IMG/VR virus record: IMGVR_UViG_3300009103_000156
Location: 1 to 23,802 of that record
DNA from: a virus
Length of the DNA: 23,802 nucleotides
Strand: one strand, 5' to 3'
Made by a program: the position numbers and the translations under genes. Shown piece by piece: positions 485 through 23,802 of the stretch (position 1 is the first letter of the stretch; the number at the start of each line of letters is the position of its first letter). Below the pieces are notes generated by a model. That model worked only from the letters and a program-made list of their open reading frames with translations, did no database searches and was not told the origin of the DNA.

Positions 485-1687
485 ATGGAAAAAAGAATAA
501 ATTGGCATGTAGAGAAGAGAAAAGTTAAAGATTTAAAGCCGTATACAAAAAATCCGAGGGTAATAACAGAGATAGGATTGGATAACTTAAAAAAAAGTTT
601 TGATGAAATTGGTTTTGCCCAACCAATAAATATAAATCTAGATAACACAATTTTAAGCGGGCATGCCAGGGTTCAACAACTTTTAAAAGAAAATATTGAA
701 GAGGTTGATTGTTATGTGCCTGATAGAAAATTGACACCTAAACAGGAAGAGGCTGTTATTATAAGGATGAATAAAAATGTGGCAGGAGAGTGGAATTTTA
801 AAATGTTGATGGATGATTTTGATTTTAGCGATCTTGAGGATTGGGGCTTTAAGGAAGAGGATTTTGAAAATTTAGAATTACCTGAAGTTGAAAAAATTTT
901 TGATGAGGAAAATGAGGATGAGGCTCCAGAGGTAAAAGGTGATCCAATTACTGAAAAAGGAGACGTTTGGGTTTTAGGAAATCATAGGCTTTTATGTGGT
1001 GACTCGACTTTAATTGATGATGTTGAGAAGTTAATGAATGGACAAAAAGCTGATATGGTTTTTACTGATCCTCCTTATGGGATTAATTATCAGTCAAATT
1101 GGGGTAGTGATTTTGATATTTTAAAAAATGATAATAAATTTTTAGATTTTATTCCATGTTTAGAAATGGCCACAAAAAATAATTCAGCCTGGTTTATATG
1201 GACTTCACATCATGTTTATTCGCAATGGAGGCTGATGTATAAGAACTATTATAAATCAACAGTTATCTGGAAAAAAAATAATGGGTCTATGGGTGATCTA
1301 ACTACGGACTATTCAATGAATTATGAGATGGCATTGTTTTGTGTAAAGGGTAGACCTAAATTTATAAATAAAAGACCTATGGCAGTATGGGAAATTTCAA
1401 GAGATCATACTGGTAATTATATTCATCCAACGCAGAAGCCAGTTGCATTGTCTGAATATGCCATGTCTCATTTTTTAAAATCTAACACTTTAGTTTTAGA
1501 TTTATTTCTAGGGTCCGGCTCTACTCTTATCGCCAGTGAAAAAACTAATAGGAAGTGTTACGGAATGGAGTTGGACCCAAAATATTGTGATGTAATTATA
1601 AAAAGGTGGCAGGACTTAACAGGTAAAAAAGCAATACTAGAAAAAACAAAACAAGCCTTTGATGAGTTAATCGAAAACAAAAACTAA
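485..1687 (+). CDS. ParB/Srx-domain fused to beta-class DNA (N6-Ade or N4-Cyt) methyltransferase
   Basis: This is a 400-aa phage DNA methyltransferase with two parts. Residues about 10-110 have the ParB/sulfiredoxin-like fold signature, with NPR near 23-25 and a GHARV box at 59-63, which corresponds to the conserved GxxR region of ParB proteins. After an acidic linker (130-150) comes an amino-methyltransferase. It has catalytic motif IV DPPY at 195-198, HPTQKP at 314-319 and the S-adenosylmethionine-binding motif FLGSGST at 341-347. Motif IV before motif I defines the beta class, which methylates exocyclic amino groups of adenine or cytosine. No restriction enzyme lies beside it, so it is an orphan enzyme that may protect phage DNA or mark it for packaging. 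AAGGG sits about 6 bases before the ATG. It is the first gene of the rightward operon, directly upstream of terminase, as in many Mu- and lambda-type phages. Confidence 0.9.
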   Translation: MEKRINWHVEKRKVKDLKPYTKNPRVITEIGLDNLKKSFDEIGFAQPININLDNTILSGHARVQQLLKENIEEVDCYVPDRKLTPKQEEAVIIRMNKNVAGEWNFKMLMDDFDFSDLEDWGFKEEDFENLELPEVEKIFDEENEDEAPEVKGDPITEKGDVWVLGNHRLLCGDSTLIDDVEKLMNGQKADMVFTDPPYGINYQSNWGSDFDILKNDNKFLDFIPCLEMATKNNSAWFIWTSHHVYSQWRLMYKNYYKSTVIWKKNNGSMGDLTTDYSMNYEMALFCVKGRPKFINKRPMAVWEISRDHTGNYIHPTQKPVALSEYAMSHFLKSNTLVLDLFLGSGSTLIASEKTNRKCYGMELDPKYCDVIIKRWQDLTGKKAILEKTKQAFDELIENKN

Positions 1688-2466: not shown

Positions 2467-3856
2467 ATTAATTTTAGGTCCTCAAAAGGGACCTCAAGAG
2501 TTGTTTTTAAAAAATGATGCTGATATATGCATTTATGGAGGCTCTGCAGGTGGTGGCAAAACATTTTCGCTCTTATTAGACTTTTTAAGGCATTTTAATA
2601 ATAAAGATGCGGGGGCTGTTTGTTTTAGGAGGACCAGTCCTCAAGTTAGAAACGAAGGCGGTCTTTGGGACACTTCTAAAAATATTTATGGGCTATTAGG
2701 AGCCGAACCAAAGGAAAGTGTTATGACTTGGAAATTCCCATCAGGTTGTAAGCTTAAGTTTGGACACCTTGAATATGAAAAAAACGTTTTGGATTGGCAG
2801 GGGTCGCAAATTCCCATTATTTATTTTGATGAATTGACTCATTTTACGGAAAAGCAATTCTGGTATATGTTATCAAGAAACCGATCAATATCATCGATTA
2901 AGCCTTATGTCCGAGCGACAACAAACCCAAGCTCGAAGTCATGGGTTAAAAAGCTTATTGAGTGGTATTTATTACCGAATGGGCTGCCGGATTTAAAAAA
3001 ATCAGGAATTAAGCGATACTTTATAAGAATTGATGATAAGCTTATTTGGAGCGAATGTTTCAATAGCTTAAAAAAACAATATCCCGATAGTATTCCCAAA
3101 AGCTTCACATTCATCCCTGCAAGTTTGAATGATAACAAAATTCTTATGAAACAGGACCCAACCTATTTGGCCAATCTCCAGGCTTTAAGTAAGTTTGAAA
3201 GAATGCAATTATTAGATGGTAATTGGAATGTTCAAGAGACGGCTGGAATATTTTTTAAAAGGCATTACTTTACAGAGGTTAATGCAACGCCTAAACTAAT
3301 CAATATTGTAAGATGCTGGGACCGAGCCGCTACTGAATGGAATGAGGGTGATAAGGGTGACCCTGATTTTACAGTTGGTTTAAAATTAGGTGTTGATGAG
3401 GACGGAATTTATTATATCCTAGATATCATAAGAGAGAGATATAGTGCCTTAAAAGTCGAAAAGCTTATTGTTAACGCTGCAAAACAAGATGGAATTAATT
3501 GTATAGTTAAGGGGTTTCAAGACCCAGGGGGAGCAGGAAAAAATGAAATTGAAAATTTTACTAGAATGTTGGCAGGATTTAATGTGGTATACGAAAAAAT
3601 TAATGTTGATAAAATTACATCTTGTAAGGCTGTTAGTGCGCAGGCTGAGGCAGGAAATATAAAAATTTTAAAATCATGCAAAAACAAAGAAGAATTTTAT
3701 CATGAAAGTGAAAACTTTCCTGAAGTCTCACATGATGATATAATTGACGCCCTAAGTGGTGCTTTTAACTATTTGGCTTTTAAGAGAGTTGATGAATTTA
3801 CCGATGATTTTATTCCTAACAATATAACAACCGTCAATCATATAACCGAGTGGTGA
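2459..3856 (+). CDS. Terminase large subunit (DNA-packaging ATPase/nuclease)
   Basis: This 465-aa protein is the motor that pumps DNA into the prohead and cuts it. The N-terminal ATPase has Walker A GGSAGGGKT (27-35), an Arg-rich segment CFRRTSPQVR (55-64), Walker B IIYFDEL (120-126, with catalytic Glu after Asp) and a coupling motif ATTNP (153-157). The C-terminal RNase H-like nuclease has its metal-binding acidic residues in RCWDRA (285-290), QDPGG (354-358) and HDDIIDA (425-431). Length and motif order are complete. The ATG at 2459 overlaps the end of the preceding gene. A TTG one codon earlier is possible. The 3' stop is 4 bases from the portal gene. Confidence 0.96.
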   Translation: MSELILGPQKGPQELFLKNDADICIYGGSAGGGKTFSLLLDFLRHFNNKDAGAVCFRRTSPQVRNEGGLWDTSKNIYGLLGAEPKESVMTWKFPSGCKLKFGHLEYEKNVLDWQGSQIPIIYFDELTHFTEKQFWYMLSRNRSISSIKPYVRATTNPSSKSWVKKLIEWYLLPNGLPDLKKSGIKRYFIRIDDKLIWSECFNSLKKQYPDSIPKSFTFIPASLNDNKILMKQDPTYLANLQALSKFERMQLLDGNWNVQETAGIFFKRHYFTEVNATPKLINIVRCWDRAATEWNEGDKGDPDFTVGLKLGVDEDGIYYILDIIRERYSALKVEKLIVNAAKQDGINCIVKGFQDPGGAGKNEIENFTRMLAGFNVVYEKINVDKITSCKAVSAQAEAGNIKILKSCKNKEEFYHESENFPEVSHDDIIDALSGAFNYLAFKRVDEFTDDFIPNNITTVNHITEW

Positions 3857-3860
3857 TAGT

Positions 3861-5243
3861 ATGGGTTTTTTCGATAATATTTTTAATAAAAAGACTGAGG
3901 ACAAATTAGAATCGGAGGATAACAAAGAATTACCTTCATTTCACGGCGTACCAGTAGGATCTACAGGTACAGAAAATTACGGCGGTTATTTTGAAGAGGA
4001 ATATTTAGATGCTTTGAGGAATAATGAGCGAGCCGACGTTTTTGATAAAATGAGACGGTCTGATCCTCAAGTTATGATGTGTTTATCAGCTGTCAAAAAC
4101 CCCATAAAAAGCTCGTCCCCAGAAATTCATGCAGCTGGTGATGATTTTTATTATAAAAATGATGCCCGATTAATTGAAAAGATTTTATTTGAAAGTATGG
4201 CCACACCTTTCACTAGATTTTTAAGTGAGGCTTTAACCATGGTTGAATTTGGTTATTCCATGTTTGAAGTAACTCATAAAAACTTTATTAACCAACCTAT
4301 ATACAGCTCTGAAGGAAATAAAATATTAGATAGCTATACTGGTATTAAAAACATTTCTTTTAGAAGTCCTAAGACTATTGAGAGATGGAATTTAAATAAG
4401 GAAACCGGGGAATTATTGAGTGTCGATCAAATAGCTTATGGTGAGCTAAGCCGCCAGGTAACTATTCCTGCAAAATATTTATTACTATTTACTCTTAATC
4501 GAGAGGGATCAAATTATGAGGGCATTTCAGCACTAAGACCATGTTATGGAAATTGGTGGCGTAAAAATAACTTTAATAAGATTAACGCTATTGGGATTGA
4601 AAAATTTGCAGTCCCAACCCCAATCGCTACAATCCCTCAAGGTAGACAGGCATCAACACAGTACACAAAATTAATAACTGCATTGGAAAAATATACAACT
4701 CATCAATCGAATTATTTAATTAAGCCTGAAGGTTTTGATATAGATTTAAAAACTAATACCTATGATCCTAGTAAAGTTGAAACCTCGATTGAAAATGAAG
4801 ATAAACGGATGGTTAAAGCCTTTCTCGCCAATTTTCTAGAGTTGGGTATGAGCGGCTCCGGTGCCTATGCACTTTCAAATGATTTGAGTGACTTCTTTTT
4901 AACTGGCTTAGAGTTTATGGCTGAAGAAATTGCAGACCAGATTAATAAAAATCTCATTCCAGAATTAATAAAAATGAATTTTGGACCTCGAGATAAATAT
5001 CCCACATTAAAGTTTAGTGGAATTAGCGATAAGGCAGGGAAAGAGCTTGCAGATATTTTAAGTGTTTTAACAAATGCTCAAATATTGACGCCTGATGACA
5101 AGCTGGAAAAACACTTAAGAAAACGTTTGGGCGTAACGGAAATGAGTGAGGATGGACAAAGAATGCAATCTCCGCCGACAATAGATATGTCTTTAAGTGA
5201 GAAATTTGAGGCCTTAAGAAGAACAAAACGAAAGAGGTTTTAA
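3861..5243 (+). CDS. Portal protein, DUF935/Mu gp29-like
   Basis: This 460-aa protein is the probable dodecameric portal at the unique capsid vertex through which DNA enters and leaves. The region RSDPQVMMCLSAVKNPIKSS (about 66-85) is the usual portal opening. The C-terminal half (about 270-390) has the DUF935 pattern: a lipid- or nucleic-acid-proximal helix, IENEDKRMVKAFLANFLELG, then a Gly/Ser-rich SGSGAYALSNDLSDFF. Order after the large terminase and before a gpF-like protein is that of Mu-type head modules. A GGTGA ribosome site sits at the end of the terminase gene. The last base of its stop codon is shared with the next ATG (TAATG), so the next gene is translated by coupling. Confidence 0.9.
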   Translation: MGFFDNIFNKKTEDKLESEDNKELPSFHGVPVGSTGTENYGGYFEEEYLDALRNNERADVFDKMRRSDPQVMMCLSAVKNPIKSSSPEIHAAGDDFYYKNDARLIEKILFESMATPFTRFLSEALTMVEFGYSMFEVTHKNFINQPIYSSEGNKILDSYTGIKNISFRSPKTIERWNLNKETGELLSVDQIAYGELSRQVTIPAKYLLLFTLNREGSNYEGISALRPCYGNWWRKNNFNKINAIGIEKFAVPTPIATIPQGRQASTQYTKLITALEKYTTHQSNYLIKPEGFDIDLKTNTYDPSKVETSIENEDKRMVKAFLANFLELGMSGSGAYALSNDLSDFFLTGLEFMAEEIADQINKNLIPELIKMNFGPRDKYPTLKFSGISDKAGKELADILSVLTNAQILTPDDKLEKHLRKRLGVTEMSEDGQRMQSPPTIDMSLSEKFEALRRTKRKRF

Positions 5244-20712: not shown

Positions 20713-21135
20713 TCAAATTTTAATTGCAGCTATTAAATCACCGCGGCTTTTGATTGGTCTTATCCTGACCATGGCCCCTTGTCTTTCAGCTACCTCAAGA
20801 CTAGTCGTTTTAGAGTTACCACCTCCAGCCTCTATATGATAAAAATAATCAAGAGCAATAGAAACATGCGTGATCCGATCGACATTTTTTCCCCAAAAAA
20901 GTAGACTTCCAGGAGCAACACCGCTCCCTTTAGACTTTTTAATAAAGTGATTAAAAAGCCTCTGAGCAGTCTGATCACCTTTAGGGTCCAGCCCAACACA
21001 CCTAAGCACCTCTTGAACAAAACCAGAACAATCAAAACCGACCACACCTTCTCCGCCCCATCGATAAGGTTTCCCAATAAAAGTTTTAGAATACTCTAAC
21101 ATCAACTGCTTGGTTTCTTTTTCAAACAAATTCAT
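20713..21135 (-). CDS. NlpC/P60 family peptidase, putative endolysin
   Basis: This 140-aa cysteine peptidase has the family's core. Residues 16-45 carry SKTFIGKPYRWGGEG with the catalytic Cys36 in DCSGF. Histidine 90 (ITHVSIAL) and His100 (YHIEAGG) complete the likely triad. Such enzymes cut D-gamma-glutamyl-meso-diaminopimelate bonds or amide bonds of peptidoglycan. There is no signal peptide, so release would need a holin or other export. The start at 21135 was chosen because GGAAAG and AGAGG precede it. The frame extends to 21276 without a ribosome site. It is encoded on the early-type leftward strand, overlapping the gene before it by 14 bases, not next to the late lysis-like genes. It might instead be a tail-associated enzyme. 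Confidence 0.83.
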   Translation of the reverse strand: MNLFEKETKQLMLEYSKTFIGKPYRWGGEGVVGFDCSGFVQEVLRCVGLDPKGDQTAQRLFNHFIKKSKGSGVAPGSLLFWGKNVDRITHVSIALDYFYHIEAGGGNSKTTSLEVAERQGAMVRIRPIKSRGDLIAAIKI

Positions 21136-21454
21136 ACTTTCCAACCTCTTTTGTTCTAATAAGCCAATTGTAAATAGAGAAGACGGCGCCATAAAAAGTT
21201 TCGCTAGCATCCCCCAGTTTATAATTAGACTTCTCAACGCTAAACACATATTGAATATCCCTCTGTGTATCATCACCTTTTTTTTCTTTTTTAAAATGTG
21301 CTGTATAGAAACCTTGGCTCTCTAAGTGCTTTTTAATTTCCAGTGCTTTTTTCATTTTTTCTATTTCATCTTTTGGAATAAAGTTATTAGAATTTTCTAA
21401 ATTTTTTAATTCCCTTTTTATTGACCATTCATTTATCAATCTATAGTTTTTCAT
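21122..21454 (-). CDS. Hypothetical protein (110 aa)
   Basis: This helical, charged protein overlaps the next gene by 14 bases and its ATG overlaps the stop of the preceding gene (ATGA). The second half (QRDIQYVFSVEKSNYKLGDASETFYGAVFSIYNWLI) looks like a small mixed fold. I do not recognise the family. Its place in a coupled three-gene set with the zinc-ribbon protein and NlpC peptidase is the only clue. Confidence 0.68.
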   Translation of the reverse strand: MKNYRLINEWSIKRELKNLENSNNFIPKDEIEKMKKALEIKKHLESQGFYTAHFKKEKKGDDTQRDIQYVFSVEKSNYKLGDASETFYGAVFSIYNWLIRTKEVGKYEFV

Positions 21455-21940: not shown

Positions 21941-22564
21941 CTATAATTGTTTTTCCAACCACACAATTAAATCTCTTTTTGCTTTTTCATCTAGACTAAG
22001 AATGTAATTCTTATTTTCTTCGTGACTTTTAATTTCTACATTTAAGTGATCTAGAATGGTGTGAACAGGATTAGAAACTCCCTGTTTCTCCTTAACCTGA
22101 CAGTAATCGATAAGCAAATCTCCATAGCGTTTCTCATTGAAAGATTTTTCTTTTTCAAGGGCTGTTTCTGTATCTTTTCTTTTGGACTTTTCCCCTCCGG
22201 AGTTTTGCTTATCTATTGCGAGCATTAATTCATCTGCTGAACAATACTCTTCGCCACTCAATCCAATCGATGCTAAAGCTCTACCGATGGCGCTGGTTTC
22301 GCAATTTTCTAAAGCGGAATATTTATTAATATTCCCCACTCCCCTTTTCTCTTCAGCTAAGCCTGACCCGACAATTCGACCTTTCGGGTCAGTTATGGAG
22401 GCTTGGACTACAACAAACCCGGTCGTAAAACCATACTCTAAAATTTTAGTTTCAATTCCAAAGCCTGCGAATGATTGAGTAGTTCTAAATTCATTAACTC
22501 TCATTACAACCGTTTTATATTCCCTGCCATGGATGGGCACAGTGCCCTTATTCGCTTTTTTCAT
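21941..22564 (-). CDS. Erf-like single-strand annealing/recombination protein
   Basis: This 207-aa protein has the N-terminal domain of small phage annealing proteins. Strand-rich VPIHGREYKTVVMRVNEF starts it, and it has the key segment INKYSALENCETSAIGRALASIGLSG (residues about 79-104). Phages use such proteins to anneal single strands during replication and repair. A linker rich in Lys/Ser/Glu (120-145) leads to a C-terminal helical part (about 150-207), which might bind a partner. GGGGGG lies 7 bases before the ATG, and the start overlaps the stop of the gene before it. Confidence 0.72.
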   Translation of the reverse strand: MKKANKGTVPIHGREYKTVVMRVNEFRTTQSFAGFGIETKILEYGFTTGFVVVQASITDPKGRIVGSGLAEEKRGVGNINKYSALENCETSAIGRALASIGLSGEEYCSADELMLAIDKQNSGGEKSKRKDTETALEKEKSFNEKRYGDLLIDYCQVKEKQGVSNPVHTILDHLNVEIKSHEENKNYILSLDEKAKRDLIVWLEKQL

Positions 22565-23153: not shown

Positions 23154-23157
23154 TTTA

Positions 23158-23186
23158 GTATTGCCTTTAAAAAGAGATTTTATAAT
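23158..23186 (+). promoter_or_regulatory. Candidate promoter for rightward initiator gene
   Basis: A perfect TATAAT at 23181-23186 reads toward the initiator gene at 23231. The -35 region 17 bases upstream is poor (GTATTG), so it would need an activator. It overlaps the leftward promoter, and the 77-bp gap therefore holds divergent control elements. Confidence 0.3.
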
Positions 23187-23213
23187 GATTGGTTAATGTA
23201 ATTATTTTGTCAA
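23185..23213 (-). promoter_or_regulatory. Candidate promoter for leftward operon
   Basis: On the minus strand a perfect TTGACA (23208-23213) is followed after 17 bases by AATCAT (23185-23190), a 4-of-6 match to the -10 box. It reads toward the gene starting at 23153. A second minus-strand box TATAAA lies too far away (23 bases) from this -35. Confidence 0.4.
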
Positions 23214-23230
23214 ACAAAAAAGGAGTTTTA

Positions 23231-23802
23231 ATGATTTTAGAAATAGATTTAGACCTAATAAAAGAAGTTGGCTTAAATGCAACTGTTGTTTTCTCTTATT
23301 TGAATAAAAAAAGAACTAATATTAAAACGAATGAGTTTTTTTCTGTAAAGTATAAAGATATAGAAAAAGAATTGGGCATAAAAAGACATAGTTTAAAAAC
23401 TGCAATTTCTCAGTTGGAAATCCATAAATTAGTTGAAATAAATGTAGTAAAAAACCTCATTTTCAAAGATGTAAGATTTAAAATTTTATGCAATGAAAAA
23501 CCTAAAAATGAAAAAACAATAGCGCGTCGAACGCCCTTAAACATCGATGTAGATTTCTACGACAACACCGCGTCACTCGATGTAGATTTCTACGACAACA
23601 CTGCATTAAAGTCCCTAAAAACCGATGTAGAATTCTACGACAACACCGCGTCATCTACGGTGTTAAAATCTACGACAACACCGCGTCAACACAGAGCGCC
23701 CTCTATATATCCTAGTAATAATATAAATATTATTACATTAATAAAAAAAGAAACGAGCCCTGAAGGCCTCGCTGGAATTGATGATGTTAGAAAAAATCTA
23801 CT
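23231..23802 (+). CDS. Replication initiator with internal origin repeats (partial; runs off window)
   Basis: The open frame starts at ATG 23231 with AGGAG 6 bases upstream and runs to the window edge (190 residues visible). Residues 1-88 look like a winged helix of phage initiator proteins: GLNATVVFSYLN, then SVKYKDIEKELGIKRHSLKTAISQLEIHKLVEI, a helix-turn-helix followed by a wing. Residues 100-160 are encoded by repeats. They read DVDFYDNTA, DVDFYDNTA and DVEFYDNTA (106-114, 117-125, 132-140), while the fourth DNA repeat is read in another frame as STTTPRQH. An AT-rich stretch encodes IYPSNNINIITLIKK. The gene is divergent from the early leftward operon. The protein probably binds the repeats in its own gene and loads host helicase, as lambda O does. 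The partner-binding C-terminus is not in the window. Confidence 0.75.
   Translation, partial: MILEIDLDLIKEVGLNATVVFSYLNKKRTNIKTNEFFSVKYKDIEKELGIKRHSLKTAISQLEIHKLVEINVVKNLIFKDVRFKILCNEKPKNEKTIARRTPLNIDVDFYDNTASLDVDFYDNTALKSLKTDVEFYDNTASSTVLKSTTTPRQHRAPSIYPSNNINIITLIKKETSPEGLAGIDDVRKNL
23544..23688 (+). repeat. Four iteron-like repeats inside the initiator gene (candidate origin)
   Basis: The 20-base core TCTACGACAACACCGCGTCA occurs at 23556-23575, 23589-23608 (three differences at the 3' end), 23634-23653 and 23669-23688. Repeats 1, 3 and 4 have identical cores. The first three also share CGATGTAGA(T/A)T before the core, so GTAGA..TCTAC forms a dyad in each (perfect GTAGAATTCTAC in the third). 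Distances are 33, 45 and 35 bases. The fourth is out of frame with the others, so the DNA itself seems to be conserved. All lie within the initiator gene, upstream of AT-rich DNA. Confidence 0.85.
23658..23683. repeat. 7-bp inverted repeat within fourth iteron
   Basis: CGGTGTT (23658-23664) is the reverse complement of AACACCG (23677-23683) inside the core of the fourth repeat, with a 12-base loop. This could form a cruciform or offer a reversed half-site for the initiator. It replaces the GTAGA..TCTAC dyad that the first three repeats have. Confidence 0.5.
23701..23750. other. AT-rich putative DNA unwinding element
   Basis: Only 7 of 50 bases are G or C (14%), and the stretch starts 12 bases after the last iteron. 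It includes TATATAT, AATAATATAAATATTATTA and an A-run. Within an AT-rich genome this is still the extreme, and the position matches the AT-rich region next to the iterons of lambda-type origins, where strands are opened. Confidence 0.65.

Follow-up and report, generated by a model that had tools for sequence, protein, structure and literature searches.

The initiator gp38 of phage SPP1 binds direct repeats of oriL inside its own gene 38, an origin that has an AT-rich unwinding element, and initiation there also requires gp39 and gp40 (PMC6316719). The initiators of phages TP901-1 and Tuc2009 bind repeats inside their own genes as well (PMC8965321), and Fhv_0043 of Francisella phage KIRK, a Phg_2220_C protein, has four iterons and an AT-rich origin in its gene, predicted to be lambda-like (PMC7924643). 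In the plasmid pSK41, whose origin is inside rep, Rep binds four semi-palindromic boxes that lie centrally within rep (PMC5703833, PMC7145576), and the peptide that they encode is a linker dispensable in trans (PMC5703833). In lambda ori, the iterons are imperfect inverted repeats that lie together with an AT tract in the middle of gene O (PMC7466680).

The window analysed here is the whole of the linear virus record IMGVR_UViG_3300009103_000156 (23,802 bases; G000 in the comparisons). Its plus strand carries ordinary tailed-phage genes, from a DNA methyltransferase and the terminase through the tail genes, which are followed by a minus-strand early block and then by a plus-strand initiator gene from 23231. 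We conclude with high confidence that this gene encodes the replication initiator of a tailed phage whose genome is about 30 kb in size and that it also contains the origin; the function proposed in the initial annotation is thus very probably right. The frame is still open at the contig end, so that the annotation saw just the first 190 codons, and the complete relatives of the protein have about 308-359 aa. The ATG at 23231 lines up with the starts of the relatives and is preceded by a plausible AAGGAG ribosome site, and an alternative upstream TTG lies at 23189 in the same frame. A promoter scan of the intergenic region upstream gave matches at chance level only. The features of the locus are as follows.

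23154..23230, no strand: intergenic region separating the initiator from the divergently oriented early genes
23231..23802, plus strand: initiator (replisome organizer) gene, ATG start, 3′-open at 23802, with homologues in G002, G005, G006 and G007
23249..23485, plus strand: predicted winged-helix DNA-binding domain, residues 7-85
23545..23575, plus strand: iteron 1, 31-bp unit, codon phase 2
23578..23608, plus strand: iteron 2, 31-bp unit with a degenerate 3′ end, codon phase 2
23623..23653, plus strand: iteron 3, 31-bp unit, codon phase 2
23658..23688, plus strand: iteron 4, 31-bp unit with a perfect CGGTG-N16-CACCG dyad, codon phase 1, 35 bp from the preceding unit
23696..23710, plus strand: junction element GCGCCCTCTATATAT, present unchanged in G002 and in similar form in the other relatives (alignment and gene sequences)
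23700..23750, no strand: AT-rich region, presumed DNA unwinding element
23786..23797, plus strand: conserved VRKN peptide just past the AT-rich region, its V-R-K invariant in five relatives

Iterons and AT-rich region inside the gene

Four copies of a 20-base core, described in the initial annotation, are indeed present on the plus strand at 23556-23575, 23589-23608 (3 mismatches), 23634-23653 and 23669-23688, three of them exact; no further copy was found elsewhere in the 23.8 kb record, and 100 dinucleotide shuffles yielded 0 core matches. The core is only part of the true unit, which came to about 31 bp when five genomes were lined up, with the consensus CGATGTAGAATTCTACGTCAACACCGCATCA. The ends of this unit form an imperfect dyad, CGRTG-N16-CACCG, in most units, and an inner dyad, GTA-N6-TAC, is centred at 10.5; self-complementarity of the unit was 0.55 at centre 10.5 and 0.53 at 13.5, compared with 0.10-0.41 at other centres. 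Copies 1 and 2 of the window have a long identical stretch in common, which suggests an in-frame 33-bp duplication between them, resembling the extra iterons in the O gene of Stx phages, where two extra iterons add 13 residues to O (PMC7466680). The search of phage genomes for the core that had been proposed at the outset was run on viral contigs with an exact 18-mer, and its three matches, each a lone site in unrelated surroundings, are what chance would give.

The GC content falls to 14% over 23700-23749, starting 11 bases past the last core copy, which agrees with the earlier statement that 50 bases of 14% GC follow within 12 bases. The 50-base minimum is 10%, at 23704, and only 0.29% of the 50-base windows of the record are at or below 14% GC. 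GC skew, likewise proposed as a check of the origin, had its local minimum in four records (G000, G002, G005 and G007) either inside the initiator gene or no more than about 0.16 kb away, but this minimum is not counted as independent evidence because transcription diverges at the same spot; taken over the whole record, the skew fails to close and mainly follows gene orientation.

Fold and family of the initiator

The winged helix that the initial annotation had read in the N-terminus was confidently predicted by AlphaFold for residues 7-85, with the order H-H-S-H-H-S-S and pLDDT mostly about 90, whereas the iteron-encoded middle was predicted to be disordered and the C-domain of G002 to be helical (pLDDT over 90). 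The closest structures among the fold matches listed, which were filled by N-domain matches and hardly sampled the C-domain, were the N-domains of RepA_N plasmid initiators (4pql, 4pt7, 5kbj and 4pta), with Z 9.6-11.2 and rmsd 3.7-3.8 over 90-95 residues at 13-16% identity for the window and Z 9.2-10.5 for G002; the top matches of the window, 4pql, 4pt7 and 5kbj, had Z 10-11 and rmsd 3.7 over 94-95 residues. As these matches rank just above other winged helices, they support the fold and a similar role rather than prove kinship. The absence of lambda O from the fold matches listed is no evidence either way. A PDB sequence search gave nothing significant, and the profile matches listed did not include RepA_N (PF06970), either at E up to 1 for the window frame or at E up to 0.1 for three of the complete relatives.

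Profile matches place the complete relatives among the TIGR02220/Phg_2220_C initiators, to which SPP1 gp38 also belongs. G002 matched TIGR02220 at E 4e-28 (97.7 bits against a cut-off of 66.65), Phg_2220_C (PF09524) was found in G002, G006 and G007 at E 1e-22 to 1e-24 (78-84 bits against a cut-off of 27), and the complete relatives matched phrog_428, ‘replication initiation protein’, at E about 1e-32. G002 further matched SPP1 gene 38 (47% over the C-domain, E 2e-17) and r1t ORF11 (49% over the C-domain). The window copy ends before the C-domain, so it is assigned to the family through the homology of its first 190 residues, and its frame matched phrog_428 at E 1e-5. Two features of the family were also found, the repeats between the N- and C-domains and the AT-rich element beside the repeats.

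Sequence comparison thus makes SPP1 gp38, rather than lambda O, the nearest known system. The two share a homologous C-domain as well as repeats and an AT-rich element mid-gene, between the DNA-binding and C-terminal domains, and the sequence of SPP1 gene 38 has short repeats at the same relative position. They differ in that the iteron sequences are unrelated, the units here being about 31 bp long and spaced 33-67 bp, in contrast to the short tight repeats of SPP1; in addition, similarity of the N-domain was undetected in the tblastn match, the next gene in the relatives encodes a DnaB-like ATPase and not gp39, and a PWM scan of all five records found no second, oriR-like array. TP901-1 ORF13 and Tuc2009 Rep2009 are likewise replisome organizers that bind in-gene repeats, and the C-domain of r1t ORF11 is homologous, but these three have other repeats and N-domains and lactococcal hosts. 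KIRK Fhv_0043 has Phg_2220_C, in-gene iterons and an AT-rich origin in common with the present gene and differs in phage lineage. The RepA_N initiators (the Rep proteins of pSK41 and pTZ2162), which gave the best fold match of the N-domain and also have in-gene boxes that encode a linker, differ in their low identity and the lack of a RepA_N Pfam match here, in the annotation of the C-domain, and in being plasmid-borne.

The lambda-like plan of the initial annotation, that is, an initiator with a winged helix, in-gene iterons and an AT-rich element just downstream, is well supported. Its claim of a new origin type does not hold, since the complete relatives match TIGR02220/Phg_2220_C and show homology to SPP1 gene 38, and since the same plan has been published for several phages and plasmids. 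What is new is the iteron sequence set, in an uncultivated phage group, while the arrangement itself is already known; the putative origin of this group is thereby placed, and an exact, testable 31-bp iteron is supplied.

On this anatomy, dimers of the initiator would use the N-terminal winged helix to bind the four 31-bp iterons that lie midway along the initiator gene; they would bend and crowd the iteron DNA and help to melt the AT-rich stretch at 23700-23750. The helical TIGR02220/Phg_2220_C C-domain, which in the window would lie past the contig end and is taken from the relatives, may then recruit the helicase machinery, the partner probably being the DnaB-like/AAA_25 ATPase of the next gene in the relatives. 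The iteron region would be translated as a disordered linker between the two domains.

Conservation of the array and alternative readings

With the window protein as query, no relatives were found among viral contigs, and the protein alone gave only matches of E 0.1, to O-like proteins of Lactobacillus phages. The terminase as query gave 44 relatives, and an initiator homologue was found in four of the 18 terminase-related records searched (G002, G005, G006 and G007). All four carry their own repeat set at the same place in the gene. G005 has two units, G002, G006 and G007 have three each, and the window has four. All five genomes share a last spacing of 35 bp; of the four that also have a penultimate spacing, three show 45 bp and G006 shows 67 bp. 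The G007 record is classed as linear, and its ends overlap by 408 bp at 96% identity, which indicates a nearly complete genome of about 30.3 kb, probably circularly permuted.

A helicase or helicase-loader gene lies downstream of the initiator in G002, G005 and G007, at a position that in the window falls past the contig end. It encodes a Walker-A ATPase of 281-283 aa, which in G005 and G007 matches DnaB-like/AAA_25 families, and in G007 it is followed by a RecU-like endonuclease gene.

The repeats could have been kept for the protein, if the V-D/E-F-Y-D-N-T-A peptide that they encode repeatedly had its own function, and window copies 1-3 do share a frame and the relatives do retain N-T-A peptides. 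We regard this as very improbable, because the codon phase of the last unit differs from that of the preceding unit in every one of the five genomes (the G006 copies have phases 2, 0 and 2), and because conservation is higher at third positions than at first and second ones: between G000 and G002, identity in the iteron block is 0.80 at third positions and 0.68 at positions 1/2, whereas in the N-terminal domain it is 0.52 at third positions and 0.67 overall. Moreover, the region is predicted to be disordered, and the matching linker of pSK41 is the one dispensable in trans (PMC5703833). The phase change of the last unit, the third-position excess and the constant last spacing indicate that the DNA itself, not the peptide alone, is constrained. 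The repeats could also be operators, by which the initiator would mainly control transcription of its own gene or of the downstream helicase gene while the origin lay elsewhere. A winged helix suits either role, and the early genes diverge just upstream of the initiator in the window and in the relatives, but the array lies 300-460 bp into the coding sequence, away from the promoter and abutting the AT-rich element, homologues of known function (SPP1, TP901-1) use such sites as origin, and the nearly complete G007 has no second array; an operator function in place of an origin is therefore improbable, if somewhat less so than the peptide function.

It is just as improbable as the latter that the gene belongs directly to the lambda O family. 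The plan is the same, with imperfect-inverted-repeat iterons and an AT tract mid-gene (PMC7466680), and marginal matches to phrog_345, ‘O-like’, were obtained for G002 (E 6e-4) and G007 (E 0.06), none being reported for the window frame or G006. The phrog_428 and TIGR02220 matches are far stronger, however, the iterons are 31 bp long here and 19 bp in lambda, and the product of the gene that follows matches helicase-type DnaB-like/AAA_25 ATPases, no match to lambda P being reported. As far as these searches tell, what the gene has in common with lambda O is the plan; in sequence, two relatives match O-like proteins, and only marginally.

The preferred reading, a gp38-type initiator with its origin inside its gene, may be extended tentatively to a distinct lineage of in-gene phage origins, which we consider possible but doubtful. 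Such a lineage would combine a RepA_N-like winged helix with a gp38-type C-domain, and a 31-bp bipartite iteron of two nested dyads (centres 10.5 and 13.5) with a fixed 35-bp end spacing, iteron and initiator changing together between relatives, including the wholly different iteron of L070. In that record, a more distant initiator (2974-3969, plus strand), 37% identical to G002, contains GAGTCATTGCAGTGTAAT followed by an A/T palindrome, in three copies at 33-bp spacing, and then an AT-rich stretch.

In-gene arrays across the family and neighbouring genes

In-gene arrays, defined as three or more 11-mers within 250 bp, were surveyed in family genes, and an array was found in 42 of 75, compared with 2 of 225 shuffles and 8 of 127 non-family ORFs taken from the same loci and similar in length. 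The length limits of the family and control sets were not quite the same, and some of the family genes are closely related to one another, so that these counts are not fully independent. The other 33 of the 75 had no array by this criterion, so that either the in-gene array is not universal or divergent arrays were missed by the search. In the 60 bp that follow the last repeat, 29 of the array-bearing genes had a mean GC content of 29% compared with 38% gene-wide (Wilcoxon p 1e-5), and in 18 of these 29 the GC minimum of the gene fell within this stretch, with 13% expected. The survey suggests that TIGR02220 initiators commonly have the origin inside their gene, and not only in the few phages studied so far, and origins may thus be predictable from sequence in many unannotated phages. 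In L100, a neighbouring gene (3719-4564) has 15 copies of an 11-mer, mostly in 15-bp steps, which is a coding tandem repeat unrelated to the initiator.

Several other genes of the window and its relatives were noted. A phrog_11717 protein is encoded at 21941-22564 (minus strand), and at the corresponding early position G002 and G007 encode a larger protein, that of G007 being a RecT annealing protein, which suggests an exchange of recombination genes at this position. An NlpC/P60 peptidase at 20713-21276 (minus strand), on the strand opposite to the structural genes, is probably an endolysin or a tail-associated hydrolase. At 485-1687 (plus strand), the window encodes a ParB-like/DNA methyltransferase fusion; G005 (L061 3476-4658, minus strand) retains the ParB-like part, but in place of the methyltransferase part it has an overlapping ORF in which a Walker-type ATPase motif is apparent.
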